From NCBI RefSeq assembly GCF_000794385.1, contig NZ_JTJB01000003.1, forward strand, positions 1 to 64,000: a DNA stretch of 64,000 nucleotides, written 5' to 3'. The first letter of the stretch is position 1; every line of letters begins with the position of its first letter. This DNA comes from Thermus sp. 2.9. Lineage in GTDB: Bacteria > Deinococcota > Deinococci > Deinococcales > Thermaceae. The notes beneath the pieces are model-generated. The model was not told the DNA's origin and did no database searches. It saw only the letters and a list, made by a program, of their open reading frames with translations. A program made the position numbers and the translations under genes. Positions 40,362-62,632 of this stretch are shown here, in pieces.

Positions 40362-40437
40362 GGGGCCGTGGCGCAGCTGGGAGCGCGCCTGAATCGCACT
40401 CAGGAGGTCACGGGTTCGAGTCCCGTCGGCTCCACCA
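40362..40437 (+). tRNA. tRNA-Ala (anticodon CGC)
   Basis: This is a 76-base cloverleaf with CCA encoded. The acceptor stem GGGGCCG pairs with CGGCTCC and contains the G3-U70 pair that identifies alanine tRNA. The anticodon stem CCTGA/TCAGG encloses ATCGCAC, giving anticodon CGC for codon GCG. The T arm is ACGGG-TTCGAGT-CCCGT. An integrase gene converges on its 3' end, so the tRNA 3' half is the probable attachment site of the prophage. Confidence 0.96.
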
Positions 40438-40457
40438 AGTCTGGGACGTGAAAACCG

Positions 40458-40479
40458 CCCCCCGGGGAAACCCGGGGGG
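40458..40479. terminator. Hairpin between tRNA-Ala and the integrase
   Basis: CCCCCCGGG-GAAA-CCCGGGGGG is a perfect 9-bp stem with a GAAA loop, between two convergent genes. There is no long T tract; AAGCTTT follows. It could stop transcription from either side. Confidence 0.6.
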
Positions 40480-47910: not shown

Positions 47911-48708
47911 GTGCGGTACTATGAGTGGCTCAACCGCCACGAGCAGCCCGAGCTCCTGCGGGCGGTGGAGAGGGCGGCGGAGGACATGAGCCCCGCGGAG
48001 GCGGCGGCCTTCATCCGGGCCCACCGCCCCAGGGGGGAGGAGGAGTCCTGGCAGGCGGCCCTCTTCTGGGAGGAGCACCGCCCCCTCCTGCTCCTTGCCC
48101 TTTTGGGGCGTTCGGGCCCCGTGGTCCAGGTGGAGCGCGAGCTGGGCCTGGGGGCGGGGATGCTCTACCACCTCCTGAAGGACTGGGGCGTGGTGTTTAT
48201 GGTCTTGCCCGCCCGGGCTACCCTCGAGGGCCCTTCCGGGCGCTTCTACGAGGGCGTGGTGGAGTGGGACGGCTCCACCTACCGAGCCCGGGTGCGGGGG
48301 CAGGTGGTCCCCGCGCGGTGGGTGGGGCGCTTCCGCCTCCTGGATGAGCCGGACCTGCTGCCCGCCCGCTACGCCCTGGAGGCGGCCCGTTTGGCCTACC
48401 CGTGGCGGGCGTGGACCCGCACGCCCCTCATGCTGGAGCTGCGGCTGCTGGCCCGGGAGCTGGGGCTGCCGGCTCGGGACGAAGCCGTCTCCGAGCGGGT
48501 GTTGCGCCACGTCTTTGGGGACCACGCGGTGGAGCTAGCCCTGGCCCGGCTCAACCCCTGCGGGTGCGCCCTCTATGACCCCCTGGAAGGGTGCCTCCTG
48601 GAGCGCGGGCGCGAGGCCGAGGGCCCGTGCGAAGACCGCATCGCCTTGGAAACCTCATGGCCCGTGCCCCCCTCGAGGAAACCTCATGGCCAGGAAGAAA
48701 GACCCTAA
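47911..48708 (+). CDS. Phage protein with helix-turn-helix segment
   Basis: This is a 265-residue protein. A helix-turn-helix-like region VVQVERELGLGAGMLYHLLKDWG lies about residues 69-91, followed by a beta-rich part and a helical end with CGCALYDPLEGC. GTG 47911, one base after the previous stop, is the likely start; the frame is open further upstream to 47887. It overlaps the next gene by 23 bases. It may be a DNA-packaging or late-control protein, but nothing decides this. Confidence 0.5.
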   Translation: MRYYEWLNRHEQPELLRAVERAAEDMSPAEAAAFIRAHRPRGEEESWQAALFWEEHRPLLLLALLGRSGPVVQVERELGLGAGMLYHLLKDWGVVFMVLPARATLEGPSGRFYEGVVEWDGSTYRARVRGQVVPARWVGRFRLLDEPDLLPARYALEAARLAYPWRAWTRTPLMLELRLLARELGLPARDEAVSERVLRHVFGDHAVELALARLNPCGCALYDPLEGCLLERGREAEGPCEDRIALETSWPVPPSRKPHGQEERP

Positions 48709-49381
48709 CCCCAACCTGGAACCCTTCCTACCCGATGGCAGGCCCCGGTGTCAGGCCCGGTCCAAGTCCACCGGGGCGCAATGCCGGCAGCCGGCGGTGC
48801 GCGGCTACTCCGTCTGCCACGTGCACGGGGCGGGCACGCGCAAGCGGGTGGCGGAGGGCGCCCGTAAGCCCCCGGGCCGCCCCGTGGTCCACGGCCTCTA
48901 CTCCGAGCGGCACGCCGCCACGCTTCGGGCCCTCTACGAGGAGGTCCTGGCGTTGGGAGACCTGGACGCCACGGACCGGGACGTGGCGGTGCTAAAGGCG
49001 GTGGTCTGGTACCTCCTGAACGGGGCGGGGCGGGTGGAGGAGTGGCAGGGGCGCCTCGAGGGCCTCTTCGCCCGCCTGGAGGAGGCGGGTGCGGAGGAGG
49101 CCCGCCCCCTCCTCTACCAGGTGGAGCGCCTCATGCAGCAGACCCAAAGCTACCTGGACCGCCTGGCGGAGCACGCCTTCCGGGTGGTCCAGGCGGTCAA
49201 AACCCGGGCGGAAACGGAGGCCAAGCGGGCGGAGACCAAGGCCCTGGCCTACCTCCTCCGCTTTGTGGACGAGCTCAAGGCGGTGCTCGTGGAGCGCCTA
49301 GAGCCCGAGGTCTATGAAGCGGTGCTGGAGGACCTGCAAAAGCGGGTGCTGGCGAAGGCCTTGCCTCAGGCTGACCCCTAG
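48686..49381 (+). CDS. HGG-motif phage protein (possible small terminase-like)
   Basis: This is a 231-residue protein. The N-terminus has a cysteine-containing module CQARSKSTGAQCRQPAVRGYS followed by CHVHGAGTRKR and then RPVVHGLYS. This module is common in phage proteins annotated near terminases. The rest is a long helical, charged region, probably coiled coil. A large terminase is not next to it, so the packaging role is only a suggestion. Confidence 0.5.
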   Translation: MARKKDPNPNLEPFLPDGRPRCQARSKSTGAQCRQPAVRGYSVCHVHGAGTRKRVAEGARKPPGRPVVHGLYSERHAATLRALYEEVLALGDLDATDRDVAVLKAVVWYLLNGAGRVEEWQGRLEGLFARLEEAGAEEARPLLYQVERLMQQTQSYLDRLAEHAFRVVQAVKTRAETEAKRAETKALAYLLRFVDELKAVLVERLEPEVYEAVLEDLQKRVLAKALPQADP

Positions 49382-49400: not shown

Positions 49401-52400
49401 ATGACGCTGGCCGAGGAGCTAGCCCTAGCGTACGCCCGGCGTGCGCTGTTGCCCCCGGGGCGGCATGAGGTGTACGTCCACCCCCACGCCCTGGTCCTGG
49501 CCAAGGCGGGCTACAACCCCTGTAGCCCGCCCCACCACCGCTGGATTACCCTGCACCCCTCCGATGACCCCGAACACTACGTGCGGGTGTGCATTCGCAT
49601 CCACGAGGACGGCACCGCTCACGTGGTGAGCGGGGGAGAGGGGCTGCGGGGCCTCCGCCTCACCCGCCTCCGCTCCCCTGAGGAGTGGAAGGAGGCGGCG
49701 AAGGAGCGCCGCAGGCAGCGGGAGGAGCGCCGCCGCCAGGAAGAAGAGCGCCGGCGGCAGGAGGAGGAAGCGGCCCTGCGCCGCGCGGCGGAGGACCCGG
49801 AGTACGCCGCCCAGTACGCCCGGCAGAAGCTGGAGGAACGGGAGTGGCAGGAACGGGCCAAGGAAAAGCAGGCCCAGCTTATGGAGGAGCTGGCCCGCAT
49901 CCGCTACCAGCAGGCCCAGCTCGCCCAGGACCTGGGCCTCGAGGGCTGGGACCTGGAGGAGCTGGGCATAGAGCGCCCGGAGGACCTGGACCCCAAGCGG
50001 CTCAAGGCCAAACTCGCCTCGGAGGTGGACCCCGACCTGGAGGACCCCGGGGTGAAGGGCGGGGCGGGGATGGTGGCGGCCCGGGTCCACCGTACCCTGG
50101 TGAACCGCCTGAACGCCCTGGAGCGGAACCTCATCCGGGAGCTGGCCCAGGACCACGAGCTCAGGGCCCAGGTCCTGGGGGAGGGGGCGGCCATCGCCCC
50201 GGAGGAGGCCCTAGCCACCATGCCCAAGGGGGGCCTGGGCTTCAGGAAGAGCCTGAAGGCGATGGCAAAGGAGCAGGGGGCCACGGAGGAGGCGCTCGAG
50301 CGGGAAAAGGAAGAGGTCTTTTGGAAGCGCGTGGAGCAGATGGACCCGGAGCGGGCCATGAATGTCATCCAGGCCCGGGACACCCTGCAACGGATGCACT
50401 ACTGGGCCAAAGAGCTTTCCCCCGGCCCCCTCCAAGCGGAGGCCAAGCCCAAGCCCGAGGAGGTGAAGAAGGACGCCGAGGCGGTGAAGGCCTTCCTAAA
50501 GCTGGCGGAAGAGGCGCGGCGCCTCGAGGCCGCCCTCCGCCGCTACGCCCGCGACACGGACCAGGCCGCCAGCGCCCTGCAAAACCGGGACCCCTCCGCC
50601 TTTGACGTGGAGGCCCGGGCCCTGGAGGACGAGGAGTTTTTGGCCAAGCTCAAGGAGGACGTGGCGGAGATGGCCCGCATGGAACTCACCCAGTCCTTCT
50701 TTGACGCCCTGGAAGCGGAGGACGACCCCACGGGCCTCCCCTACGCGGAAAAGCGGAAGAAGATGCTGGGCCACCTCCTGCACGGGGCCTACGCCCACCT
50801 CAACGCCGTGGTGGCCTCCACCCTGGGGCTTTCCACCCTGGACCGCTTGGTGGTGGACGCCTTGGGCATAGACGGGGCGGCCCAGGTGGCGGCCTACGCC
50901 CTGCGGTCCCGGCTGTCCCCGGAGGAGCTCCAGGCGGTGCGGGAGGCCCTGAAGCGGTACCACGAGGAGCAGGCCACCCGCCTTATGGAAGAGGCCTTGG
51001 AGCGGGCCCAGGCCGCCCAGGCCGCGGCGGCGGCCATTGAGCTCCCCGAGGTGAAGGACGCCCTGAGCCTCACCCTGGCGAAGGAGCTCAACGAGCAGCG
51101 CAAGGCCTATTTGGAGGAGGCCCTCGAGGCCTTGGGCACGGCCCTGGGCCAGGTGGAGATGGGGGCGGCGCTGAACCTGGCCCTGCGCGCCAAGCGGGAC
51201 CAAGTGGTCATCCGGTTTGGCCGGGATAAGGACACGGAAAGCGTCCTGGTGGCCCTTCGGGCCCTGGGGCTTAGCCGGGAGGACTACGAGGCGTCCCGCC
51301 ACCCGGAGACCAACGAGCTATCGGTCATCCTCAAGGAGAGCGCCCTTCAGAAGCTCGCCCCGGATGCCCCAGTCCAGGAGCTGGCCCTGCGGGCCCGCCT
51401 CGAGGCCATCCGGCGGGGGGAGCTGGACGAGCCCAACTGGCTCCCCAAGGGCTTCGTGAGCTACCCCAAGAACCTCCACAACGACCCGGAGCGCCCCAAG
51501 CCCTTCGCCACCCCCCCGGGCTTCGCCGAGGGGCGCGACGTGGCGGATGCCCTCTATGAGTACGTGGCCTCCCGGTTGGCGGACGGGTGGAAGCCCTCTG
51601 ACATCCTGCGGGAGGTGGGCTCGGTGGACTTCGTGGCCACCTACGTTCCCGAGTCCCAATGGGACGAGTACGCCCGGGCCCTGGACGCCCTTTTCCCCGC
51701 CACCCGGGAGGACGGCACCCTCATAGACGTGGACAAGGACCCGGAGCTGCGAGCGCGCTACGAGGCGATGGCCCGGGAGTACGCCAGCCGCCACGGGGAT
51801 GCCGACTTCCACTCCCAGGCGGTGGACCCCGACCACCCCGACACCCGCAAGGCCCTCTACCTGGCCCTCATGGAAGACCCCCGCACCCAGGTGGCCTTCA
51901 AGCCCCTAGGGGAGCTCACCCCCGAGGATCAGCGGGCCCTGCGGGAATACTTCTACACCGAGATTGCCGGGGTGGACCCCAAGACGGGCCGGGACACCAA
52001 GGCCTTAAGGGAGGCCCTCGAGGCCCTCGGCCCGGAGCCCGCGAAGTACGGGGAAGACCTTTTTGGCAACCGGTCCATCACCCCGGAGTGGGAGGAGTGG
52101 AACCGGAAGCGGGAGGCCATCTTCGCCCAGCATTTTGGCCCCACCGCCTGGGAGGAGTTTGTGGTGGGGATGCGGGGCCTGGACCGGGCGTATGAGGCCA
52201 TCCAGGACCACATGCGGGGGCGCTTGGCGGAGCGCTTTGCCAAGAGCTACGCCCGGCTCACCGGGAAGCCTTTGCGCCTGGGCAAGGTGCCCCTCCAGCA
52301 CGGGGAGCGCTTCCGGGCCGCCATAGACCCCGAGGAGCGGGCCCGCCTCCTCCAGGAGGAGCAGGCCAGAATGGCCGCCCTCAGGGAGCGGGTCCGGGGG

Positions 52401-54269
52401 CGGTTTGCGGCTGAGGGGGAAGGGGCGGTGAGGCAAAAGCTACAGCGCTCCCTGGAGCTCAGGCGGGCCTTGGAGCAGAAGCAGGGGGCCCTCTTCGGCC
52501 TGGCCCCGGGGGCGGGCTACAGCGTAGAGGTGCGCCTCGAGGACCTCACCCGGGAGCGGTACGCCCTGGGCCGCCGCCTGGAGGGGCAACTGGCCTCCCT
52601 CCTGCCCTACGTGGCCAACCTCCCCCCCACCGCCAAGCGCATCACCCCCATCCCTGGGGTCAACCTGGGGAAGGGCACCCCCTTCGTTCGGCAGCAGCGG
52701 GCCATCAAGTTCGCCAAGACCGCCCGCAAAAGCCTCATGGCCCTGGGGATGGGCTCGGGGAAGACCCTCATCCAAATCGGCACCTTCACCGAGCTTCACG
52801 CGGAAGGGAAGGCGAAGAAGGGGCTCTTTATTGTGCCCAGCGTGGTGCGCAACCAGTTCGGGGAGGAGATGGCCCGCTTCACCGAGCCCGGGCGCTACCG
52901 CTTCCACGCCCGGGAAGCCCCCTTCCACGAGCGCCTGGAGGCGTACCGCGACCCCAACACCCACATGGTGGTCATCACGCACCAGACCTTCCGGGATGAC
53001 ATGCTCCGCCTGATGGCGGCCCACACCGGCCTGCCCCTCGAGGACTTCCAGGACCACTTCATGCAACTCACCCCGGAGGCCCGCAGGCGGCTTCTGCGGG
53101 AAACCCTGAAGGCCAACGGCATGGAAAACCTCCTGGACTACGTGGCCGTGGACGAGGGGCACCAGGCCCTGGGCCGAGAGGGGAAGCCGGACGCCTTCTT
53201 GCAGCTCGTGGTGGACGCCGCCTTGGGGGAGTCCGGCTACGCCATCGCCGCCACCGGGACCCCGGTCAAGAACGACGCCTCGGAGGTGTACGACTGGCTT
53301 CGCAAGCTGGACCCCGAGCGCTGGGAGGGGCGGGAAGGGGAGTTCAAGCGCCGCTACGGGGTGAACCTCCGCGCCGCCCAGGAGGCCTTCAAGCGGGAGG
53401 CGGGCCGCTACGTCTTCGCCGCCTCCATCCGCCCGGGCACGGAGCGCAAGGACGTCTGGGGCATGGAGACGGAGCGGGGGCACGCCCCCATTCCCCTCAC
53501 GGCGTGGCAGCGGCGGGAGCTGGCCCGGGTGAACGAGGCCTATGAGCGGGCCCGGGCCGCGGCCCGGGAAGGGCGGGTGGACCTCGAGGCCCTCGAGGTC
53601 CTGAGCCCCAAGGCCTTCGCCTCCGCGCCCCCGGAGGAGCACGAGGCCATCGCCCGGCGGCTTAGCGCCTCTTTGGGCACGCTGCGCTTCGCCGCCCAGG
53701 CCCGGGTCATAGACGCCGCCCCCCCGGAGCACAACGCCAAGCTCCAGCACCTGCGGCGCCTGGCCAAGGAGCGCCTAGCCCAGGGCCTGCCTGGGGTGGT
53801 CTTCGCCCACAGCCTGGAGGCGGTGAACCTCATCGCCGATGCCCTCAAGCGGGATGGGGCGCGGGTGGAGGTCATCACCGGGGCGGACTCCTCGGAGGAG
53901 AAGGCCCGGAAGCGGAACGCCTTCCAGAACGGGGAGGTGGACGTCCTGGTGGCCTCGGACGCGGGGGCGGTGGGCATGAACCTCCAGCGGGGGCGCTGGC
54001 TCGTGAACTACGACCTGCCCATGACCCACGCCACCCACGCCCAGCGCAACGCCCGCATAGACCGCGTCGGGCAGACCAACCCGGTGGAGGTTCACCACCT
54101 CATCACCGAGTCCAAGTACGACCTGGACGCGGTGAAGCGGCTGGAACGCAAGCGGCTCCTGCACGAAATCTTCGAGGGGGACTGGGAGCGCATGGACGAC
54201 CAGGGCCTGGCCCGGCTCATCGCCCTGGAGCGCGCCAAGCGCGGGGAGCTCCAGGGCATGGTGGCGTGA
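49401..54269 (+). CDS. Giant SNF2-like helicase, 1622 residues, with long unknown N-terminal region
   Basis: The C-terminal third is a superfamily 2 helicase of SNF2 type: Walker A GMGSGKT near residue 1118, the DEGH box near 1251, SAT-like ATGTPVKN, and motif VI with ARIDRVGQTN near 1550. The first 1080 residues are unrecognised. They include a strongly charged coiled coil (about 95-185, repeated RRRQEEE units) and several helical blocks. Phages with such fusions (P1 DarB, polyvalent proteins) use them in the virion for DNA entry or anti-restriction; that role is inferred here. ATG 49401 follows AAGGGGAGC. Confidence 0.8.
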   Translation: MTLAEELALAYARRALLPPGRHEVYVHPHALVLAKAGYNPCSPPHHRWITLHPSDDPEHYVRVCIRIHEDGTAHVVSGGEGLRGLRLTRLRSPEEWKEAAKERRRQREERRRQEEERRRQEEEAALRRAAEDPEYAAQYARQKLEEREWQERAKEKQAQLMEELARIRYQQAQLAQDLGLEGWDLEELGIERPEDLDPKRLKAKLASEVDPDLEDPGVKGGAGMVAARVHRTLVNRLNALERNLIRELAQDHELRAQVLGEGAAIAPEEALATMPKGGLGFRKSLKAMAKEQGATEEALEREKEEVFWKRVEQMDPERAMNVIQARDTLQRMHYWAKELSPGPLQAEAKPKPEEVKKDAEAVKAFLKLAEEARRLEAALRRYARDTDQAASALQNRDPSAFDVEARALEDEEFLAKLKEDVAEMARMELTQSFFDALEAEDDPTGLPYAEKRKKMLGHLLHGAYAHLNAVVASTLGLSTLDRLVVDALGIDGAAQVAAYALRSRLSPEELQAVREALKRYHEEQATRLMEEALERAQAAQAAAAAIELPEVKDALSLTLAKELNEQRKAYLEEALEALGTALGQVEMGAALNLALRAKRDQVVIRFGRDKDTESVLVALRALGLSREDYEASRHPETNELSVILKESALQKLAPDAPVQELALRARLEAIRRGELDEPNWLPKGFVSYPKNLHNDPERPKPFATPPGFAEGRDVADALYEYVASRLADGWKPSDILREVGSVDFVATYVPESQWDEYARALDALFPATREDGTLIDVDKDPELRARYEAMAREYASRHGDADFHSQAVDPDHPDTRKALYLALMEDPRTQVAFKPLGELTPEDQRALREYFYTEIAGVDPKTGRDTKALREALEALGPEPAKYGEDLFGNRSITPEWEEWNRKREAIFAQHFGPTAWEEFVVGMRGLDRAYEAIQDHMRGRLAERFAKSYARLTGKPLRLGKVPLQHGERFRAAIDPEERARLLQEEQARMAALRERVRGRFAAEGEGAVRQKLQRSLELRRALEQKQGALFGLAPGAGYSVEVRLEDLTRERYALGRRLEGQLASLLPYVANLPPTAKRITPIPGVNLGKGTPFVRQQRAIKFAKTARKSLMALGMGSGKTLIQIGTFTELHAEGKAKKGLFIVPSVVRNQFGEEMARFTEPGRYRFHAREAPFHERLEAYRDPNTHMVVITHQTFRDDMLRLMAAHTGLPLEDFQDHFMQLTPEARRRLLRETLKANGMENLLDYVAVDEGHQALGREGKPDAFLQLVVDAALGESGYAIAATGTPVKNDASEVYDWLRKLDPERWEGREGEFKRRYGVNLRAAQEAFKREAGRYVFAASIRPGTERKDVWGMETERGHAPIPLTAWQRRELARVNEAYERARAAAREGRVDLEALEVLSPKAFASAPPEEHEAIARRLSASLGTLRFAAQARVIDAAPPEHNAKLQHLRRLAKERLAQGLPGVVFAHSLEAVNLIADALKRDGARVEVITGADSSEEKARKRNAFQNGEVDVLVASDAGAVGMNLQRGRWLVNYDLPMTHATHAQRNARIDRVGQTNPVEVHHLITESKYDLDAVKRLERKRLLHEIFEGDWERMDDQGLARLIALERAKRGELQGMVA

Positions 54270-54281
54270 AGGGGGTGAAGG

Positions 54282-54527
54282 ATGCGGAAGCGGCTACAGC
54301 GCAAATGGGCCGAGGTCTGGGGCGCCTACGCCACCGCCTTGCGGATGGACGAGGCCATTCGGGAAGCGGCCCGGGGCTTGGAAGCGCACCACGAGCGCCG
54401 CCTACAGGCCATGCTTCCCCTCATCCCCGCGCCTGGGGCGCGAGAGGATGGCCTCGAGGCGGAGTACCTGGACACCCTCTTCCAGCGGCACATCGCCCGG
54501 CTGTACGCCGGGGATGAGGCGGGGTAG
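54282..54527 (+). CDS. Phage hypothetical protein, 81 residues
   Basis: This small helical, basic protein starts MRKRLQRKWAEVWGAYA, twelve bases after the helicase gene with a GGGGGTGAAGG ribosome region. No family is recognised. It is the last plus-strand gene before the AT-richer spacer and the CRISPR array. Confidence 0.55.
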   Translation: MRKRLQRKWAEVWGAYATALRMDEAIREAARGLEAHHERRLQAMLPLIPAPGAREDGLEAEYLDTLFQRHIARLYAGDEAG

Positions 54528-54974: not shown

Positions 54975-55534
54975 GTTGCACGAGATGCTTCCCCGCAAGG
55001 GGATTGCGACCTTTGAAGCCTCGGATTTTGCGCTTGTCTTGACTCGTCAAGTTGCACGAGATGCTTCCCCGCAAGGGGATTGCGACCACTTGATGGCCCC
55101 GACAAAGGTTAGGGCCACGCCCGGATGGTTGCACGAGATGCTTCCCCGCAAGGGGATTGCGACCTAGCGCCTCCACCGCCTTCCAGAACTCATCCCACTC
55201 TTGTTGCACGAGATGCTTCCCCGCAAGGGGATTGCGACCGCGCCCTCCGGCAGTCTGATGGCGGCCTCTATCGTGTTGCACGAGATGCTTCCCCGCAAGG
55301 GGATTGCGACGACAGAAAGAACTTATGGCCTCTAAACATTCGTCCTCCCTACAGTTGCACGAGATGCTTCCCCGCAAGGGGATTGCGACGCCTTGGCCCA
55401 GCTCCGGGGGGGACGGTGAGAATCGCGTTGCACGAGATGCTTCCCCGCAAGGGGATTGCGACTCCAGGTACAGCTCACGCTCCCGCTCCCAGCGTTTTGT
55501 TGCACGAGATGCTTCCCCGCAAGGGGATTGAGCT
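54975..55534 (+). CRISPR. CRISPR array, 8 repeats of 36 bp and 7 spacers
   Basis: Repeats start at 54975, 55051, 55128, 55203, 55275, 55354, 55427 and 55499. The first 20 bases are GTTGCACGAGATGCTTCCCC and the last 8 ATTGCGAC, with a CCCC-GCAA-GGGG hairpin in between. Seven copies are identical; the eighth changes after ATTG and is the terminal one. The ATTGCGAC end, like the usual 8-base crRNA tag, and the decayed last copy both put transcription left to right. Spacers are 40, 41, 39, 36, 43, 37 and 36 bases. Repeat and spacer lengths resemble Thermus type III arrays. No cas gene is in the window. Confidence 0.97.
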
Positions 55535-55550: not shown

Positions 55551-56405
55551 TCAGACCCCTACCCGCCACTCCAGGGTGTAGTCCCCAATGCGGTAGGGCC
55601 TGCCGTAGGCGGCGTAGGCGTCCAGGATGCCCTCGAGGGCCATCTCCGCCCCGTAGAGGACCGCGCTTCCCAGGTCCAGCATCCGGTCCGCGCGGGTGAG
55701 GGTGAGGCCGTCCCACCCTAGGGCCTCTAGGAGGGGGAAGTCCGCCAGGAGGCGGGCGGTGAAGTAGAGGGCCAGCTCATCCCGCTGCCCCGGGCTTTCC
55801 GCCAGGAGGAGGACCTCCGCCACCGCGCGGAAGGTGGCGGTGAGGTCCCGATCCCCGAAGGCCCGCTCCGCGAGGGCGTAGCGGGCCTTGATGAGGGCTT
55901 GGGGAAGGGGCTTCTGCTCGTGCACGTGCTCTTGGAGGGCCACAAAGACCCCCCGGGCCTCCCCGTGGAAACGCAAGCGCTGGTACAGCACGCGCTTCAC
56001 GTCCAGGACCAGGCGGGCCTCCGCCTCCCGCCGCACCGCCACCGTGGCGGTGGCGGGCTCCCCGTACTGGCCCTCCGGGGTTTTGGGCCAGACGTGGTAA
56101 GTCCAGCGGCCCCCCTCCAGGGGCCGGCGCTCCTCCCCAAACGCGGCGGGGAAGGCCTCGAGGTCCCACACCTCCCCCCCCTCGGGCAGGGAAGGGCGCG
56201 GTTCCCGCACGAAGGGATAGGCGCGGCTGGGCCTGGGTGGCCCGTCCCAGACCAAAAAGCCCCCGGGGTCCTCGGGGCCGGCGAGGGGCGTGCCCTCCGG
56301 GGCCCGGAGGACCCGCACCCAGGGGTAGCCCTGGGGCAGGGTGAGGAAAAGCCGCACCGCCCCGCCCTCGGGCCGGGGCTCGGCCAAAAGGTGCAAGACC
56401 CTCAT
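55551..56405 (-). CDS. Phage hypothetical protein, 284 residues
   Basis: This is the last gene of the minus-strand late cluster; its stop is 17 bases from the CRISPR array. Its first half has beta-rich, Pro/Gly segments that look like a small immunoglobulin-type domain (GGRWTYHVWPKTPEGQYGEP). The second half is helical (RYALAERAFGDRDLTATFRAVAEVLLLAE). It overlaps the next gene upstream by four bases. It may be a tail or baseplate component, but no family is recognised. Confidence 0.55.
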   Translation of the reverse strand: MRVLHLLAEPRPEGGAVRLFLTLPQGYPWVRVLRAPEGTPLAGPEDPGGFLVWDGPPRPSRAYPFVREPRPSLPEGGEVWDLEAFPAAFGEERRPLEGGRWTYHVWPKTPEGQYGEPATATVAVRREAEARLVLDVKRVLYQRLRFHGEARGVFVALQEHVHEQKPLPQALIKARYALAERAFGDRDLTATFRAVAEVLLLAESPGQRDELALYFTARLLADFPLLEALGWDGLTLTRADRMLDLGSAVLYGAEMALEGILDAYAAYGRPYRIGDYTLEWRVGV

Positions 56406-57259
56406 GCCCCACCTCCCGCCAAGGCCTTGAGCCGGTTAACGTCCGCCTCTAAGGCGATGCGCATCACCTCGGGGTATACCTGGCGTAGCCAGTCGTAGAC
56501 CGCCCCGGCGATGCGGTAGCCGGGGTGCTCGGGGATGACCCAACTCCCTGGGGGGCTCTTCTCGGAGAGGGTGCGGAAGGTGAGGTACGCGCTCCGGCTT
56601 TCGCTCGGGGTGGAGGCGGCCTCGAAGCGGTGTAGGCCCGCCAGGCGCTGTACCTGGGGGTCCGAGGTGTCCAGCCCCAGGGCCTCGAGGTCGCCCAGGG
56701 TGAGCCGGTCCCCCCATTGGTAGCGGAAGCGGCGGGCGAAGGCGCTGGGGTCGTGGACCGAGGGCTCGTGGTGCACGCCCACGACGCGGCTTTGGGCCAT
56801 CCGCCGCGCCCGGGCGTACACCTCCTCCGGCATCACCGAGGCGAAGCCCACCGCCCCCGGGGTCCCGTGGCGGAAGGGGATGTGCATGTAGAGGTGGCCC
56901 GCCTTGGCCCGGCGGGCTTGGTGGCTTCGCTTCAGGACCTCCCGCAGGTCGTAGGCGGGGCGCCCCCACTCCAGGGCCGCGGCGTAGGGAGCCTTGGCCT
57001 TGAGGGTGTAGCTGTGGTCCGCCTCCGCTTCCAGGGTGATGCTCCGGGCGTAGTTGCCCGTGCGGGGCTGGACGCGCTCCCCCGAGGGCAGGGGTTCCCC
57101 CAGGGCGTAGCCCACCCACTTCCGGTGCGCGGCCACCGCCAGGTCCCGGATGGCGGCGAGCTGGTTGGGGAAGAGGGCCTCGGGCCGGTGGGTGGCCAGG
57201 GCGATGGCCCGCTCGAAGGGGCTGGGAAAGCCGATGCTGACGCTGACCTCGTAGCGCAT
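56402..57259 (-). CDS. Phage tail-completion-like (HK97 gp10-type) protein
   Basis: This is a 285-residue protein. The stretch ARSITLEAEADHSYTLKAKA followed by PYAAALEWGRPAYDLREVL resembles gp10-type neck proteins, in which a PYAxxxExG pattern is common. The remaining part is of unknown fold and ends in a helical segment. It lies between other connector-like genes on the minus strand, three bases after the upstream gene. Family assignment is tentative. Confidence 0.5.
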   Translation of the reverse strand: MRYEVSVSIGFPSPFERAIALATHRPEALFPNQLAAIRDLAVAAHRKWVGYALGEPLPSGERVQPRTGNYARSITLEAEADHSYTLKAKAPYAAALEWGRPAYDLREVLKRSHQARRAKAGHLYMHIPFRHGTPGAVGFASVMPEEVYARARRMAQSRVVGVHHEPSVHDPSAFARRFRYQWGDRLTLGDLEALGLDTSDPQVQRLAGLHRFEAASTPSESRSAYLTFRTLSEKSPPGSWVIPEHPGYRIAGAVYDWLRQVYPEVMRIALEADVNRLKALAGGGA

Positions 57260-57262
57260 GCC

Positions 57263-58183
57263 TCACCTCCCGTAGGCCGCGCCGGGGCGGGGGAAGAGCT
57301 CCCAGACGCGGAGGTGCAACCGGCGGGGCAGGGAATGCCCGCCCTGGTGCCGCACCTGGGGCAGCTCCCGGAAGACGTAGAACTCCGGGGCGGCGATGTA
57401 CGTGAGGGTGTAGGGGGTGCCCATCCGGGGCCCCCGGCCCGGGGTCCAGACCACCCGGCCCGCCTCGAGGGTGAAGTCCTCCCCCGGCGCGTAGGCGCTG
57501 GGGCGGAACTGGGCGTCTAGGGCCTCGCATCCCAGGACCTGGTAGACGTACGCGTATAAGAGGTGCTCCTCCTCCCCCCGGTGGAGGACCTGGGAAACCC
57601 GCACCCGCGCGTCCACGAGGACGAAGCGGTCGGGGTAGGCGGCGAAGAAGGCGGGGTTGGCCACATACCTGCCATCGGGGAGGCGGGTACGGGCGGGGAG
57701 GGTGAGGCTCAGGTCCCGGTGGTCCAGCTCCCCGTACTCCCCCACCTCCTTCCGCCCCGCCAGGTTCTGCCCGTGCCCCCGCGCTACCAAAGGCGCCCGC
57801 ACGCGCACGTGGTAGGCGGCGCCTTCCGGCGGGGCCTCCCCCACGAAGCGGATTTGGCCGTCCTCGAGGGCGATGGCGTAGCTCCTCCCCTCCTCGTCCC
57901 AGACCGCCATCACCTCCTCCGGGCGGAGGTGGCGGGGAAGGGCCTCGGGCCGGGCCGCGGAACCCCGGTGGAAGGTGAGGGTCCACTCCACCCTCGGGGG
58001 CGGTTCCCAGGTGAAGCCGTAGCCCCGGCAGCGGGGGCAGGTGGGTTGGGGGCTCCCCGTGGCCCGGTCCCGGCAGGGGCAGGCCCGGGCGGGGAGGTAG
58101 AGGAGGGCCCAGGACTGCTCCCCGTTCAGGAGCTCGTCAAAGTGCTCCAGGTGGAAGGCGTACCCGTCAAAGGAGTGCCTCAT
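57263..58183 (-). CDS. Phage structural protein with zinc-binding cysteines
   Basis: This is a 306-residue protein. Near residues 34-55 it has CPCRDRATGSPQPTCPRCRG, a likely zinc site as found in phage neck proteins of the DUF-type family. The rest is beta-rich. ATG 58183 overlaps the upstream stop by four bases; the open frame further upstream lies in another gene. I cannot name the protein. Confidence 0.55.
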   Translation of the reverse strand: MRHSFDGYAFHLEHFDELLNGEQSWALLYLPARACPCRDRATGSPQPTCPRCRGYGFTWEPPPRVEWTLTFHRGSAARPEALPRHLRPEEVMAVWDEEGRSYAIALEDGQIRFVGEAPPEGAAYHVRVRAPLVARGHGQNLAGRKEVGEYGELDHRDLSLTLPARTRLPDGRYVANPAFFAAYPDRFVLVDARVRVSQVLHRGEEEHLLYAYVYQVLGCEALDAQFRPSAYAPGEDFTLEAGRVVWTPGRGPRMGTPYTLTYIAAPEFYVFRELPQVRHQGGHSLPRRLHLRVWELFPRPGAAYGR

Positions 58184-58971
58184 GCGCTGAAGAGGATGGG
58201 CCCCTTGATGGAGAAGTAGGTCCGGAGGAACGCCTCCAGCTCCTTCTCCAGGGCGCTTTGGTAGGGGGAGAGGCGGTGGCTGGTGGCGCTCACGGGGTAG
58301 CTCCGGCTCTGGCTGAGGCCGTCCACGCTCACGCTCTCCGAGGCCACCGCTCCTTCCTGGAGCATGGCCAGGGTGGGCAGGAGGAGGATGGCGGCCCGGG
58401 CCGCCACCGCCCAGGCCAGGTCCGGCTCCTCCTCGAGGACGTCCCCAAACCCCGCGTCGTAGGCGATGCGCCACCCGTTGGGGATGCGCCTGCCCCCCGC
58501 CACCACCCCCGTCCACACCCCGCTGAGCTGCACCATCTGCGCCGAGGTCCATCCCGGGTAGAGGCGGAGGGCGTAGCGGCGCCGGCTCACCTGCCACCAC
58601 TCCCGCGGGAACTCCAGCACCGGGGGCAAGGCCTGCCCCCCCAGACCCAGGGCCACGTAGCGCACTTCCCGGATGGGGCCGTAGGGGAGCTTCAGAATGC
58701 TCCAGCGGTCCCCCTTCCAGGCGTCCGGCTCGTAGTCCGGCCCTTCCCCCCGGAGGATGGGCAGGCCGTCCTCGGGCAGGCGGGCCTGCGGCACCGCCCC
58801 CAGGACGACCCGGGTGGGGGCGAAGAGGACGCCGAAGGCCCGGGTGAACCAGGCCTGGGCCGCCTTAAGGGCCTCCTCCAGGTGGGCCTCGGGGTACGGC
58901 CGGCCCTCCTTGTCCTCCAGGGGGACCCCCCGCAGGAAGCGGTCCCGCAGGTACTGGGCCGTGAGGGGCAT
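58180..58971 (-). CDS. Putative phage head-tail connector protein
   Basis: This is a 263-residue protein starting MPLTAQYLRDRFLRGVPL. It is helical at the ends (YQSALEKELEAFLRTYFSIKG), with a central beta region containing WQVSRRRYALRLYPGW. Length, helix pattern and its place near the start of the minus-strand late block suggest a gp6-like connector. This is an inference from context. Confidence 0.45.
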   Translation of the reverse strand: MPLTAQYLRDRFLRGVPLEDKEGRPYPEAHLEEALKAAQAWFTRAFGVLFAPTRVVLGAVPQARLPEDGLPILRGEGPDYEPDAWKGDRWSILKLPYGPIREVRYVALGLGGQALPPVLEFPREWWQVSRRRYALRLYPGWTSAQMVQLSGVWTGVVAGGRRIPNGWRIAYDAGFGDVLEEEPDLAWAVAARAAILLLPTLAMLQEGAVASESVSVDGLSQSRSYPVSATSHRLSPYQSALEKELEAFLRTYFSIKGPILFSA

Positions 58972-58974
58972 AGG

Positions 58975-59417
58975 CTAGAGGGCCTCATCCAAAAGGCGCA
59001 CCAGGTCTTCCTTGGAGGCCTCCTCGGGGGCCACCACCTGGAGGGCCTCGAGGGCCCGCTTAAGCTCCTCCTTGGGGAGCCTGGCCTTGGCGCTTGGGCT
59101 CATGCTCCGGTAGCGGGCGCGGAAGGCCTCGAGCCAGTCTTTTTCCGCGGGGGAGGGGCCCAGGCCCGTTTCCTCCGTGGGGTTGGGCGCACCGCGGCCA
59201 CGGGGGGCGTGATGAGGTCCCCGGTGGTGGCGTCAATCACCGCGTAGCCCGGCACCTGGCGGAAGGGCTCCACCTGCTTCAGGCTCACGGGCTCGGAGAC
59301 CACGGCGCCAAACTTGTCGCTCCAGCCGAAGAGGATGCCGTTCACCTTCACCCTCTGGCCCTTCTTCACCGCGTCCAGCACGCTGGGCACACCGACCACT
59401 TTGACCCGGTAGTCCAT
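58975..59417 (-). CDS. Phage hypothetical protein, frame broken by one base
   Basis: The N-terminal part (MDYRVKVVGVPSVLDAVKKG) is a small beta domain with VKVNGILFGWSDKFGAVVSEP. After about residue 77 the frame shifts. With one G added to the GGG run at 59185-59187 (plus strand), the protein continues RPNPTEETGLGPSPAEKDWL and ends in a helical tail rich in Lys and Glu (LVRLLDEAL), 147 residues in all. The adjusted length is an exact 148 codons. ATG 59417 follows GGAGGTGAGC. It is the first gene of the minus-strand late cluster. Confidence 0.6.
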
Positions 59418-59494: not shown

Positions 59495-60469
59495 ATGGAG
59501 CTCCTCACCTTGCCCCAGGGGGTGGACACCCTTCTCATCCCCCTGCCCCAGGCGGTGCGGGCGGAGCCCGGCACGCGGCGCGTCCTCTACTTCGAGGCCT
59601 CCCGGGAGGGCGTGGTGGACCGGGAGGGCGAGGACATCGCCGCGGATGCCCTTTGGGCCTCCCGGGACCTCTTCCTGCGACAGGGCAACATTGACGTCAA
59701 CCATTGGTCTTGGCTCGGCAACCCCCCGGGGACCGGGATGCGCCCGGAGTACGTCATCGGCCTGCCCCTGGAGGTGCGCCGGCAGGGCCCGAGCATCTTC
59801 GTTAAGGCGGAGCTCTTCAGCAACCTGGCCCCACCCCCGCCCGGCTCCAGCGGGGAGTGGGCGGACCGGGTGTGGCACTCCCTCACCCAGATGACCCCGC
59901 CCATGCGCTGGTTCCCCTCCGTGTTCGGCAAGCTGGCCCCCAACGCCACGGTGGAGGTGGAGCTACGGGACGGGAAGCGGGTGCGGGTGCTCAAGGGGCC
60001 CATCGAGTGGTACTCCGTGGGCCTGGCCCAGCGGGCGCAAAACCCCGCCTTGCCCCCGGTGAGCCTGGAGCCGATGGGGGCGTTCGCCAAGGCGGAGGGC
60101 GCGGGGGACGTGCGGGTGATGGGGCAGGTGGCGGTGGTGCCCTACCGCACCCTGGCCAAGGCCCTGACCCAGGCGGCGCTGCTCACCGCGGGCGACCCCC
60201 AGGCCCTGGACGCCAAGGCGGGGCTGAGCGGGGTGCCCGCCCTGCGGCGGGAGTCCCTCGAGGCCCTCTACCGCCAGACCGCCCCCAAAGTCCTGCGGGG
60301 GCTCCTAACGGGCCGGGTGGAGGGGAGCCTAAAGGGGGTGATGAAGGCCTTCCTCCGCCTGGGCGTGCCCGAGCGCGTCGCCAAGCGCTTCACCACGCGC
60401 TTGGGAGAGGAGATTTTGGCTCTGACCCCTAAGGGAGGGCAAGGTGAAAGCGTGAGGAGGAAGCCATGA
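59495..60469 (+). CDS. Putative phage prohead protease (XkdF-like)
   Basis: This is a 324-residue protein. The region FEASREGVVDREGEDIAADA followed by QGNIDVNHWSWLG resembles the start of XkdF-type prohead proteases, in which the His comes early. The EWYSVGLAQ segment (about 171-179) could hold the catalytic serine. It precedes a scaffold-like and a capsid-like gene, the usual order. Residues about 231-257 almost match the capsid N-terminal region. ATG 59495 has no ribosome site and directly follows TAGGGT; GTG 59522 is another option. Confidence 0.6.
   Translation: MELLTLPQGVDTLLIPLPQAVRAEPGTRRVLYFEASREGVVDREGEDIAADALWASRDLFLRQGNIDVNHWSWLGNPPGTGMRPEYVIGLPLEVRRQGPSIFVKAELFSNLAPPPPGSSGEWADRVWHSLTQMTPPMRWFPSVFGKLAPNATVEVELRDGKRVRVLKGPIEWYSVGLAQRAQNPALPPVSLEPMGAFAKAEGAGDVRVMGQVAVVPYRTLAKALTQAALLTAGDPQALDAKAGLSGVPALRRESLEALYRQTAPKVLRGLLTGRVEGSLKGVMKAFLRLGVPERVAKRFTTRLGEEILALTPKGGQGESVRRKP
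60185..60265 (+). repeat. 81-bp segment shared with the capsid gene, copy 1
   Basis: It matches 61244-61324 at 71 of 81 positions, in the same frame, and encodes TAGDPQALDAKAGLSGVPAL. It lies near the C-terminal third of the protease gene. Confidence 0.85.
60421..60430 (+). repeat. TCTGACCCCT motif, copy 2 of 4
   Basis: The 16-base context GGCTCTGACCCCTAAG (60418-60433) is identical to 59460-59475. It lies 35 bases before the scaffold gene start. Further copies of the core are at 62672 and 62788. Confidence 0.7.
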
Positions 60470-61131
60470 GGCAGAAGGACGTGGAGACCGCGTTCGCCCG
60501 CATTCAGGGCCTCCTGGCCAAGGCGGTCCAGGAGGAAGAGGATGACGAGCTGGCCCGGGACCTGGACGAGGACCTCGAGGCCTACGCCCGCCTGAAGGCC
60601 AAGAAGGCCAAGAAGGCCCAGGAGGCCCAAGAGGACGAGGAGGACCAGGACCTGGAGATGGACTTTGAGGACGAGGAGGACAAGCCCACCGCCAAGGCCC
60701 GCTACGAGGACGACGAAGAGGACGACGAAGAGGACGAGGACGACGAGGCGGAGCCCACCCTGGGCGCCGTGCTCTCCCTCATCGTCCGGGCCCTGGACGG
60801 CATCCACCAGAACCTCGAGGCCCTCCGGGCCGCCACCTTGGAGCTGGGCAGGCAGAACGTGGCGGTGGCCAAGGGGGTGGCGGAGCTGGAGGAGGCCGTC
60901 TATGGCGTCCTGGACGCCCCCAGGCTCCCCAAGTCGGGTCGGCGGGTGGCCAAGGCCGCGGAGGAGCCCCGGCTCAACCCGGGGGAGCTGGTGGCCAAGG
61001 CGGTGGCGGCCAAGGACGCGTTCAGCGCCTACGACGTGGCCGTGCTGGAGTCCATGCTCAACCGCGGCGACCTGGAGGGCGTTCGGAAGCGTTTCGCCCC
61101 GCACCAGCTCAAGGTGTTGGGCCTCATCTAG
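60466..61131 (+). CDS. Putative phage scaffolding protein, very acidic
   Basis: This is a 221-residue protein. Residues about 22-103 are extremely acidic with a Lys-rich break (KAKKAKKAQEAQEDEE then EDDEEDDEEDEDDEAE), followed by a coiled-coil helix (ALDGIHQNLEALRAATLELG) and a helical C-terminus. Acidic coiled-coil proteins between a protease and a capsid gene are usually scaffolds. It overlaps the protease gene by four bases and is followed by the capsid gene after ten. Confidence 0.6.
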   Translation: MRQKDVETAFARIQGLLAKAVQEEEDDELARDLDEDLEAYARLKAKKAKKAQEAQEDEEDQDLEMDFEDEEDKPTAKARYEDDEEDDEEDEDDEAEPTLGAVLSLIVRALDGIHQNLEALRAATLELGRQNVAVAKGVAELEEAVYGVLDAPRLPKSGRRVAKAAEEPRLNPGELVAKAVAAKDAFSAYDVAVLESMLNRGDLEGVRKRFAPHQLKVLGLI

Positions 61132-61141
61132 GAGGTAGCGG

Positions 61142-62632
61142 ATGGACGGGTTGACCAACATCCTCTTCGGCGGGGGGCTTCCCGGCTTCCCCAACGGCAT
61201 TCGGACCCTGGAGGACTGGCAGGCCTTTGCCAAGGCGGTGCAGACCGCGGGCGACCCCCACGCCCTGGACTTCAAGGCGGGGCTGAGCGGGGTGCCCGCC
61301 ATCCGCCTCGAGTCCTTGGAGGCCACCCTGCGGAGCGTGGTGGAGCGGGAGGAAACCTTCCGCCTCTACAAGCGCCTCACCCCCGTGCCCGCCTTTAGCT
61401 CCGTGGCCGAGTGGGCCACCCAGGTGGGCACCGGGGGCGACATCGCGGATGCCTTCCACTCCGAGACCTCGGACATCCGGGGGGCGGTGGGCGAGTACCG
61501 GCGCAACATCCTCCGGGTGAAGTACCTCATGACCCGGGCGGAGATTAGCCTGGCCGCCTTGCAGCAGCGCACCGTCTTGGGCACGGGGGACGACCTGAAG
61601 GCCCGGGAGAACGTGAACGCCACCCTGCGCCTCCTTCGGGGCCTGGAGTGGGCCCTCTTCCAGGGGGATGAGGCGGTGGTGCCCACGCAGTTTGACGGCA
61701 TCCGCGCCTGGCTTGCCAAGGAGTTCCCGGACCACATCCTGGACCTAAAGGGCTCCAGCAACGTGGACGAGCTCTACGCCGCCATTTACCAGGCCTTTGG
61801 GCGCACCATCGGTCCGGATGGCGGTTTTGGCCGCATCACGGACGTGTACCTTTCCCCCGCGGTCCAAAACGACCTGGACCTTCACCTCCAGCCGCAATGG
61901 CGCGTGGCCCTGGACGATAACCCCCGGGCCGTGGATTACGGGGCGCCCGTGCGGGCCATCCGCACCTCCTACGGGGACGTCATCACCACCCAGGACGTCT
62001 GGATCGAGGACCCCGACGCCGCCCACCTCACCACCCCGGCGGAGGTGCGCACCCGGGGCCGGCTTTCCCCCGAGGCCCCTGCCGCCCCCACCCTGAGCGC
62101 GCAGGCCATCACCTCTGACCCCAACAGCCGCTTCCAGGCGGCCCAGGCCGGCACCTACCACTACGCCGTGGCCGCCATCGGGGAGGGCGGCGAGGGTCCC
62201 TTGAGCGCCCTCGAGGCCGTCACCATCGCCGCGGGCGGCGGGGCGGAGCTCACCATCCAGCCCCCCGCGGGCTACCGCCAGACGGGCTACGCCATCTACC
62301 GCTCCACCAAGGACCCCGCCACCCTGCCCACCCCGGCGGACCTCCGCCTCGTTAAGCGCATCCCCGCGGGCTCGGACCCCACCCAGCCCGTGGTCTTCCG
62401 CGACCTTAACCACGACATCCCCGGCTCCGCCACCCTCTACCTCCTGGACCTCAGCCCCGAGGCCATTGACTGGACGCAGCTTTTGCCCATGCTCCAGTTC
62501 CCCCTGGCCCCGGTGAAGGCCACGGTGCCCTGGGCGGTGCTCCTCTTCGGCGCCCTCAAACTGGGCATTCCCCAGCGGCATTGGGTGGTCAAAAACTACC
62601 TGCCCAAGGCGGCCCGCTGGAAGCCCTTCTAG
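61142..62632 (+). CDS. Putative major capsid protein with immunoglobulin-like insertion
   Basis: This is a 496-residue protein. The first about 310 residues have the layout of tailed-phage capsid proteins, with helical N-terminus, AIYQAFGRTIGPDGGFGRIT and DVYLSPAVQNDLDLHL. Residues about 317-430 form a fibronectin/immunoglobulin-like beta domain (AAPTLSAQAI, YHYAVAAIGEGGEGPLS, YAIYRSTKDP). The C-terminus PWAVLLFGALKLGIPQRHWV returns to a capsid-like domain. It follows GGAGGTAGCGG and ends just before a strong terminator, as expected of a highly expressed gene. Confidence 0.65.
   Translation: MDGLTNILFGGGLPGFPNGIRTLEDWQAFAKAVQTAGDPHALDFKAGLSGVPAIRLESLEATLRSVVEREETFRLYKRLTPVPAFSSVAEWATQVGTGGDIADAFHSETSDIRGAVGEYRRNILRVKYLMTRAEISLAALQQRTVLGTGDDLKARENVNATLRLLRGLEWALFQGDEAVVPTQFDGIRAWLAKEFPDHILDLKGSSNVDELYAAIYQAFGRTIGPDGGFGRITDVYLSPAVQNDLDLHLQPQWRVALDDNPRAVDYGAPVRAIRTSYGDVITTQDVWIEDPDAAHLTTPAEVRTRGRLSPEAPAAPTLSAQAITSDPNSRFQAAQAGTYHYAVAAIGEGGEGPLSALEAVTIAAGGGAELTIQPPAGYRQTGYAIYRSTKDPATLPTPADLRLVKRIPAGSDPTQPVVFRDLNHDIPGSATLYLLDLSPEAIDWTQLLPMLQFPLAPVKATVPWAVLLFGALKLGIPQRHWVVKNYLPKAARWKPF
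61244..61324 (+). repeat. 81-bp segment shared with the protease gene, copy 2
   Basis: It matches 60185-60265 at 71 of 81 positions, in the same frame, and encodes TAGDPHALDFKAGLSGVPAI near the N-terminus of the capsid protein (about residues 35-61). Confidence 0.85.

Follow-up and report, generated by a model that had tools for sequence, protein, structure and literature searches.

The stretch of DNA analysed here (hereafter the window) comprises 64,000 nucleotides of Thermus sp. 2.9 and enters a complete-looking, phiMa-like prophage (C3:40393-91831, 51,439 bp) that is related to the Thermus phages Cumys and phiMa. The ends of this prophage are exact 87-bp direct repeats overlapping the 3' end of a tRNA-Ala gene, and an integrase gene lies beside the left repeat. 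RecT and replication-initiation genes, which are of the early type, are followed on the same strand by a very long ORF that begins with ATG, is free of internal stops and belongs to a family labelled DNA helicase by both PHROGs and GenBank (Table 1).

Table 1. Positions of the SNF2 gene, its parts and neighbouring features in the window
Feature	Position	Strand	Basis or remark
tRNA-Ala gene	40362-40437		overlapped by left repeat
Left 87-bp direct repeat	40393..40479	.	right copy C3:91745-91831, beyond window
ORF directly upstream, Cumys_44 homolog (match 48650-49366)	48575..49381	+	weak HGGxSTG match
1622-aa SNF2 protein	49401..54269	+	phrog_62 'DNA helicase'; homologs full-length
N-terminal module, residues ~33-98	49497..49694	+	small beta unit, strands 46-51, 61-67, 73-78
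Long predicted helices, residues 93-177	49677..49931	+	coiled-coil-like, poorly conserved
Helical block, residues ~411-600	50631..51200	+	conserved; conservation profile and model
Small alpha/beta unit, residues ~600-655	51198..51365	+	weak ACT-type likeness only, Z 4.8, 53 residues
SNF2 two-lobe motor, residues ~1085-1596	52653..54188	+	Pfam, profiles, structure comparison
Motif I (Walker A) GMGSGKT, residues 1116-1122	52746..52766	+
Motif II DEGH, residues 1251-1254	53151..53162	+
Motif VI QRNARIDRVGQ, residues 1548-1558	54042..54074	+
Small helical-type ORF, 81 aa, directly downstream	54282..54527	+	conserved together with helicase
Head maturation protease homolog	59495..60469	+	homology
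Cumys_40 homolog, scaffold position	60466..61131	+	homology
Major capsid protein homolog	61142..62632	+	homology

Identity of the encoded protein to the Cumys helicase is 78% and extends along almost the entire chain. Full-length homologs are also found in phiMa (77%, with an annotated start later than that of the window ORF), Lalka27b (45%), Bordetella phage PHB04 (35%) and Morganella phage Mecenats66 (32%). The dN/dS ratio against the Cumys helicase is 0.25 overall (NG86, own script), which indicates purifying selection; by region it is 0.15 for residues 1-100 and again for 1086-1622, and 0.30-0.35 between them. This identity and the purifying selection show that the ORF is not a chance one. 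A scan of viral contigs (IMG/VR, two peptide patterns) yielded 107 relatives, the best 80 of which were kept. The family is otherwise sparsely represented. It was found in eight of 50,697 phage records, corresponding to seven phages, and in three of 72,556 plasmid records, among which only that of Rhodovastum aligns beyond the motor. A pattern scan of a one-genome-per-species collection gave 13 loci, assigned by record title to Calidithermus, proteobacteria and Polyangiaceae. Matches at E <= 1e-20 occur in three of the 61 genomes searched, that of Thermus sp. 2.9 included, which is the only one among the 27 of its genus.

In the window protein, Pfam recognizes SNF2-rel_dom (1108-1324), Helicase_C (1448-1557), overlapping DEAD/ResIII matches and one weak match below threshold, and nothing else. 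The AF2 model of residues 830-1622 (pLDDT 81.9, pTM 0.62) resembles DDM1 (Foldseek, 4.1e-19) and INO80 (VIA Z 30.8, rmsd 2.7 over 401 residues), the part of the model concerned (256-767) corresponding to residues ~1085-1596 of the protein. In a 52-row alignment, which leaves out L042, L081 and L088, the catalytic positions are invariant: in motif I two glycines and the lysine, in motif II the DE, and in motif VI the Q, R, R, R and G. Strict motif strings were present among 55 homologs in 36 (motif I), 55 (II), 34 (III), 42 (V) and 51 (VI) cases. The window protein belongs to the SNF2 (SF2) ATPases and has the fold of a remodeller-type dsDNA motor; motors of the SNF2 class travel along dsDNA. 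One orthologous helicase carries an intein (L088:13379-14434; PF14890, E 1e-11), located near Walker A by profile position.

The preliminary description of this gene, an SNF2 helicase fused to more than 1000 unknown residues, was correct. It had also pointed to a coiled coil, and long helices are indeed predicted at residues 93-131 and 133-177, forming a coiled-coil-like stretch. Structure prediction in segments, which it had proposed as a check, gave the remodeller motor described above and, for residues 1-1100 (55 rows; pLDDT 78.7, pTM 0.49), mostly helical bundles with a small beta unit at 46-78. Foldseek searches with the latter model against PDB and BFVD returned nothing at E <= 0.001, and a second look with VIA gave matches to short stretches of helix, the highest Z being 5.8; a multi-domain model of 1100 residues may hide single-domain matches, so that this blank is no proof of a new fold. 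The best match of an N-terminal alignment profile to PDB sequences (E 0.14, to a scaffold protein) was taken as chance. These searches revealed no clear likeness of the N-terminus to a known cytoplasmic factor; such a likeness, together with absence from virions, had been named by the preliminary description as contrary to its reading. For the conservation analysis, the 76 full-length loci of the 80 were reduced to 55 rows of less than 90% identity, the window protein included. Conservation shows an N-terminal peak at residues 41-80, is low at 121-240 and comes near the level of the motor from about residue 480; the non-motor half is therefore under family-wide constraint.

The position of the gene had first appeared odd, at the end of the early genes and apart from other replication genes. 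This impression was mistaken, since all five named relatives examined have the gene in the structural module, and in the window, too, it borders head genes. In Cumys the helicase is followed by the small ORF, the head protease, the scaffold-position ORF and the major capsid protein, and the order in phiMa is the same. In PHB04 and Mecenats66 the helicase lies between the portal/minor-head genes and the protease-MCP block; in Lalka27b it is found in the tail part, between a tail protein gene and the baseplate genes. The window keeps the Cumys order except for five genes (h34-h38, homologs of Cumys 34-38), which lie in reverse orientation at a new place, after the small ORF and ahead of the protease (55560-59417). 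As to the cause of this inversion, no exact 12-base inverted repeat was found between the boundary stretches checked. The ORF directly upstream of the helicase may be terminase-small-subunit-like.

In relatives, the order in the head operon is minor head, in some cases a DarB-like methylase-helicase, helicase, small ORF, protease, scaffold and MCP. Among the best 80 of the 107 relatives, counting eligible loci (those with enough flank or with the gene found, a definition that tilts the counts upward) and genes on the same strand, a protease lies within 6 kb downstream in 61/72 loci (44/51 after clustering at 90% identity), an MCP within 8 kb in 59/69 (42/48), a minor head gene within 9 kb upstream in 52/67 (34/46), a portal gene within 9 kb upstream in 22/62 (15/42), and the small ORF within 600 bp in 55/77 (39/53), the profile for the last mixing two unlike families. 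Gene roles were assigned with profiles built iteratively, the seeds being annotated proteins and some without a name; the protease profile expanded from 78 to 136 ORFs and the MCP profile from 71 to 129, so that some drift is likely. At least one structural gene is present within 10 kb on the same strand in 76 of these 80 loci (52 of 54 when non-redundant), the exceptions being L072, L075, L076 and L081. A 2097-aa neighbour of the helicase in PHB04 combines an N6-methylase with an SNF2 protein, a DarB-type pair, and a relative of it occurs near the helicase, on either side, in 38/66 eligible loci of the same set (23/44 non-redundant).

Right after the helicase and the small ORF, the prophage contains a CRISPR mini-array (window 54975-55534) with eight 36-nt repeats, the last of which is degenerate. 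Host arrays on contigs C54, C62, C18, C55 and C10 carry its repeat with 1-3 mismatches. The mini-array found no match among phage records at E <= 1, and six of its seven spacers matched in the collected loci, apart from the array itself, only short pieces of at most 17 bases. In Lalka27b (L007:6016-8095) an annotated CRISPR array adjoins a TnpB gene near the capsid gene, and PMC11437467 likewise describes a CRISPR array beside TnpB in this phage.

Several orthologs carry additional domains ahead of the conserved chain. Among 11 N-terminal extensions scanned, five contain InPase, a polyvalent-type inorganic pyrophosphatase (L022, L034, L044, L045 and L091, of which L034 and L045 are apparently close relatives), and one of these (L022) also has ART-PolyVal; the other six (L040, L048, L057, L072, L075 and L081) show no Pfam domain. 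Extensions were taken from the first start codon and may overreach; those of L035, L082, L085, L052, L073 and L089, with a layout as in L034 or L044, were outside the scan.

The N-terminal module has relatives beyond the helicase family. A profile built from 55 helicase rows alone (residues ~33-98) matches a protein of Aeromonas phage DH1 (E 1.6e-8), where the matching segment follows a portal domain (PF06381, 2.1e-19), and ORF26 of Vibrio phage 1.112.O (3.5e-6), which is encoded two genes ahead of a head-morphogenesis gene. Two further matches were not counted as lying outside the family, one being part of a split helicase (L094) and the other a second SNF2 protein of L074. This paralog (L074:432-3758) is shorter (1109 aa), has the same module and precedes the main helicase by about 6 kb. 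Scanning viral contigs with the DH1 and Vibrio phage 1.112.O segments gave 47 loci, in 42 of which the helicase-only profile matches an ORF at E <= 1e-3 (best 1.3e-14), the remaining five having no ORF at this threshold. The 42 ORFs score 23.2-49.1 bits, the next ORF in these loci scores 10.0, and among 12,400 shuffled sequences none reached E <= 1e-3 (best 8.6 bits). From 38 unique module proteins, L113, L115, L141 and L153 were left out, and those of DH1 and Vibrio phage 1.112.O were added. Pfam assigns 17 families in all to 36 module proteins scanned, including DUF2213 (10 proteins), Phage_portal_3 (8), DUF5710 (7), InPase (3), ddrB-ParB (2) and Portal_Mu (1), with LPD3, PBECR1, ADPrib_exo_Tox, ART and NUDIX among those found in single members. 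We noticed that DUF2213 and DUF5710 proteins of many phages start with the module (L107-L153). A literature search for DUF2213 as a prohead protease found no paper with both terms, and the protease-position proteins of the window, PHB04 and Mecenats66 have no Pfam match.

In the opposite direction, 92 helicase ORFs were compared with a profile of 31 non-helicase segments, and 73 of them match at E <= 1e-3. No Thermus-type helicase is among them, the window copy included (the best value, 0.0096, falls on a relative), and the membership of the Thermus-type copies rests on the helicase family alignment. Three other module queries against the 50,697 phage records recovered DH1 and Vibrio phage 1.112.O only, weak module-like matches (E 0.5-10) occur in several phages, and one query copy found none on plasmids at E <= 0.01. 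A literature search for a published name of the module met the strings GGKFNG, GMGGKF and AGMGGK only in three papers titled on hepatitis C. Judged from the profile matches, the same unit of ~50 residues seems to be common to portal proteins, to proteins with effector domains (InPase, ADP-ribosyltransferase, PBECR nuclease, ddrB-ParB, NUDIX) and to the SNF2 family. It is tempting, if doubtful, to suggest that residues ~33-98 represent a mobile module for sorting into heads, employed throughout the tailed phages to route unlike enzymes into the capsid for injection, and that the SNF2 family is a methylase-free injected DNA motor protecting or clearing incoming phage DNA.

The window protein itself is probably an SNF2 translocase of the polyvalent class that is packaged in the virion and injected, and not a DarB. 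We favour this reading because of the position in the structural operon, the DarB-like methylase-helicase nearby, the polyvalent fusions of orthologs, the shared module and the intact motor, and because of the parallels with DarB of phage P1 (PMC9024508) and the DarB-like protein of phage JC1 (PMC9144972). The N-terminal module would sort the protein into the assembling head; the long body, mostly helical in the predicted structure, fills residues ~100-1084; and the C-terminal motor, whose fold and motifs are present, should translocate on dsDNA as its class does. By analogy with P1 DarB, the protein may be synthesized together with the proteins of the head and packaged; it would then be ejected, threaded, along with the genome and would refold in the new host. 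There, the motor would most likely ride on the incoming DNA and displace or block proteins of the host that bind DNA, restriction complexes for instance. This step is the weakest of the proposal, possible and yet somewhat doubtful. Against this reading we counted the failure of the reverse profile to match Thermus-type copies, the tail position in Lalka27b, the four of 80 loci without a structural gene nearby, the single recognized activity, the six blank extensions among 11 and the insignificant matches to DarA.

Operon position beside protease, scaffold and MCP, together with the movement of SNF2 motors on dsDNA, would also suit a late translocase that stays out of the virion and, in the cell producing the phage, helps heads to assemble or DNA to be packaged, perhaps by clearing concatemers for terminase. 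We consider this unlikely, since the InPase and ART-PolyVal fusions of orthologs and a module common to portal and other polyvalent-type proteins point to an effector carried in the head, and packaging in most tailed phages proceeds without such a protein. The name DNA helicase given by PHROGs and GenBank, as well as RecT and replication-initiation genes upstream on the same strand, would fit an early-expressed replication or recombination helicase. However, the motor is of the SNF2 remodeller type and does not have a replicative helicase fold, and relatives keep the gene beside head genes rather than replication genes, which makes this explanation improbable. Finally, the motor scores with profiles of the defence proteins BrxHI (5.8e-18) and DrmD (3e-17), and also DpdE and ZorD, and a CRISPR mini-array is present in the same prophage, as might be expected of a prophage-encoded defence against other phages. 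The best stretches of all four matches nevertheless lie almost wholly in the motor, an identification as DISARM DrmD was rejected at 63.1 bits against a cut-off of 610 (DISARM_DrmD), and unrelated phages retain the gene among those for the head; a role in defence thus seems very improbable.

To our knowledge, few packaging signals have been described, which makes phages difficult to study when they deliver proteins into the host before their genes are expressed. One protein with a mapped targeting segment is P1 DarB (PMC9024508). If our reading is right, a short module of portals and injected-type enzymes would provide a testable sorting signal and a sequence predictor of injected proteins. 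In that case the SNF2 family would also offer a counterpart of DarB with the motor only, in thermophile phages that can be cultured (Cumys and phiMa on T. thermophilus HB8), and a heat-stable version from these could be purified for structure determination. The class itself is already known; the newest element is the possible general head-sorting module.

The closest known relatives, the phrog_62 helicases of Cumys, phiMa, Lalka, PHB04 and Mecenats66, are uncharacterised members of the same family (78-32% identity, nearly full length) that share module, body, motor and head or tail operon setting with the window protein, and differ from it in the five-gene inverted block that precedes the protease in the window. 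We found no earlier description of the window copy, and 'helicase' is used twice in the main text of the Cumys and Lalka paper (PMC11437467), both times for other proteins. This paper hypothesises packaging of the separate DarB and Ulx homologs of Lalka. A literature search found no virion proteomics for relatives, and the main texts of PMC11437467 and PMC9503643 do not contain 'mass spectrometry'. The ORF family directly downstream of the helicase is not supported as homologous to Ulx (hhalign probability 0.1, with two sequences only on the Ulx side and a query mixing two small-ORF families). With SNF2 remodellers (INO80, ISW1, DDM1, RapA and Sulfolobus SNF2), the window protein shares the two-lobe fold (Z up to 30.8) and profile matches, but identity is ~16-21% and confined to the motor, and the ~1084 residues preceding it are not common to both.

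P1 DarB is likewise a very large phage protein with an SNF2-type motor. From the head, 37 unique peptides of P1 DarB are reported; the protein is believed to pass into the cell, and 30 of its N-terminal residues suffice to send a reporter into the capsid (PMC9024508); a DarB-like protein is also listed among the virion proteins of JC1 (PMC9144972). In contrast to DarB, the window protein has no methylase in Pfam; the family aligns with DarB in motor segments only (family profile 7.8e-10), and its N-terminal ~1085 residues do not align. Lalka27b carries a helicase-family protein and a DarB-like protein separately. Lacking both the methylase and the N-terminal similarity, the window helicase was rejected as a DarB. 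Matches to DarA are weak and not significant (E 0.097). According to Iyer et al. (2017; PMC5512222), InPase domains of the kind seen here occur mainly in phage polyvalent proteins, which are likely packaged, and are also fused to portals. The preliminary description had likened the protein to polyvalent injected proteins that guard entering DNA. Its likeness to the polyvalent injected class is supported indirectly, through InPase or ART-PolyVal in orthologs, the head-gene setting, the frequent DarB-like neighbour and the shared module; in the window chain itself, SNF2 is the one recognized activity. Like polyvalent proteins, the window family is encoded among virion or packaging genes, and kinship and gene context together support, indirectly, the grouping of the window protein with them.
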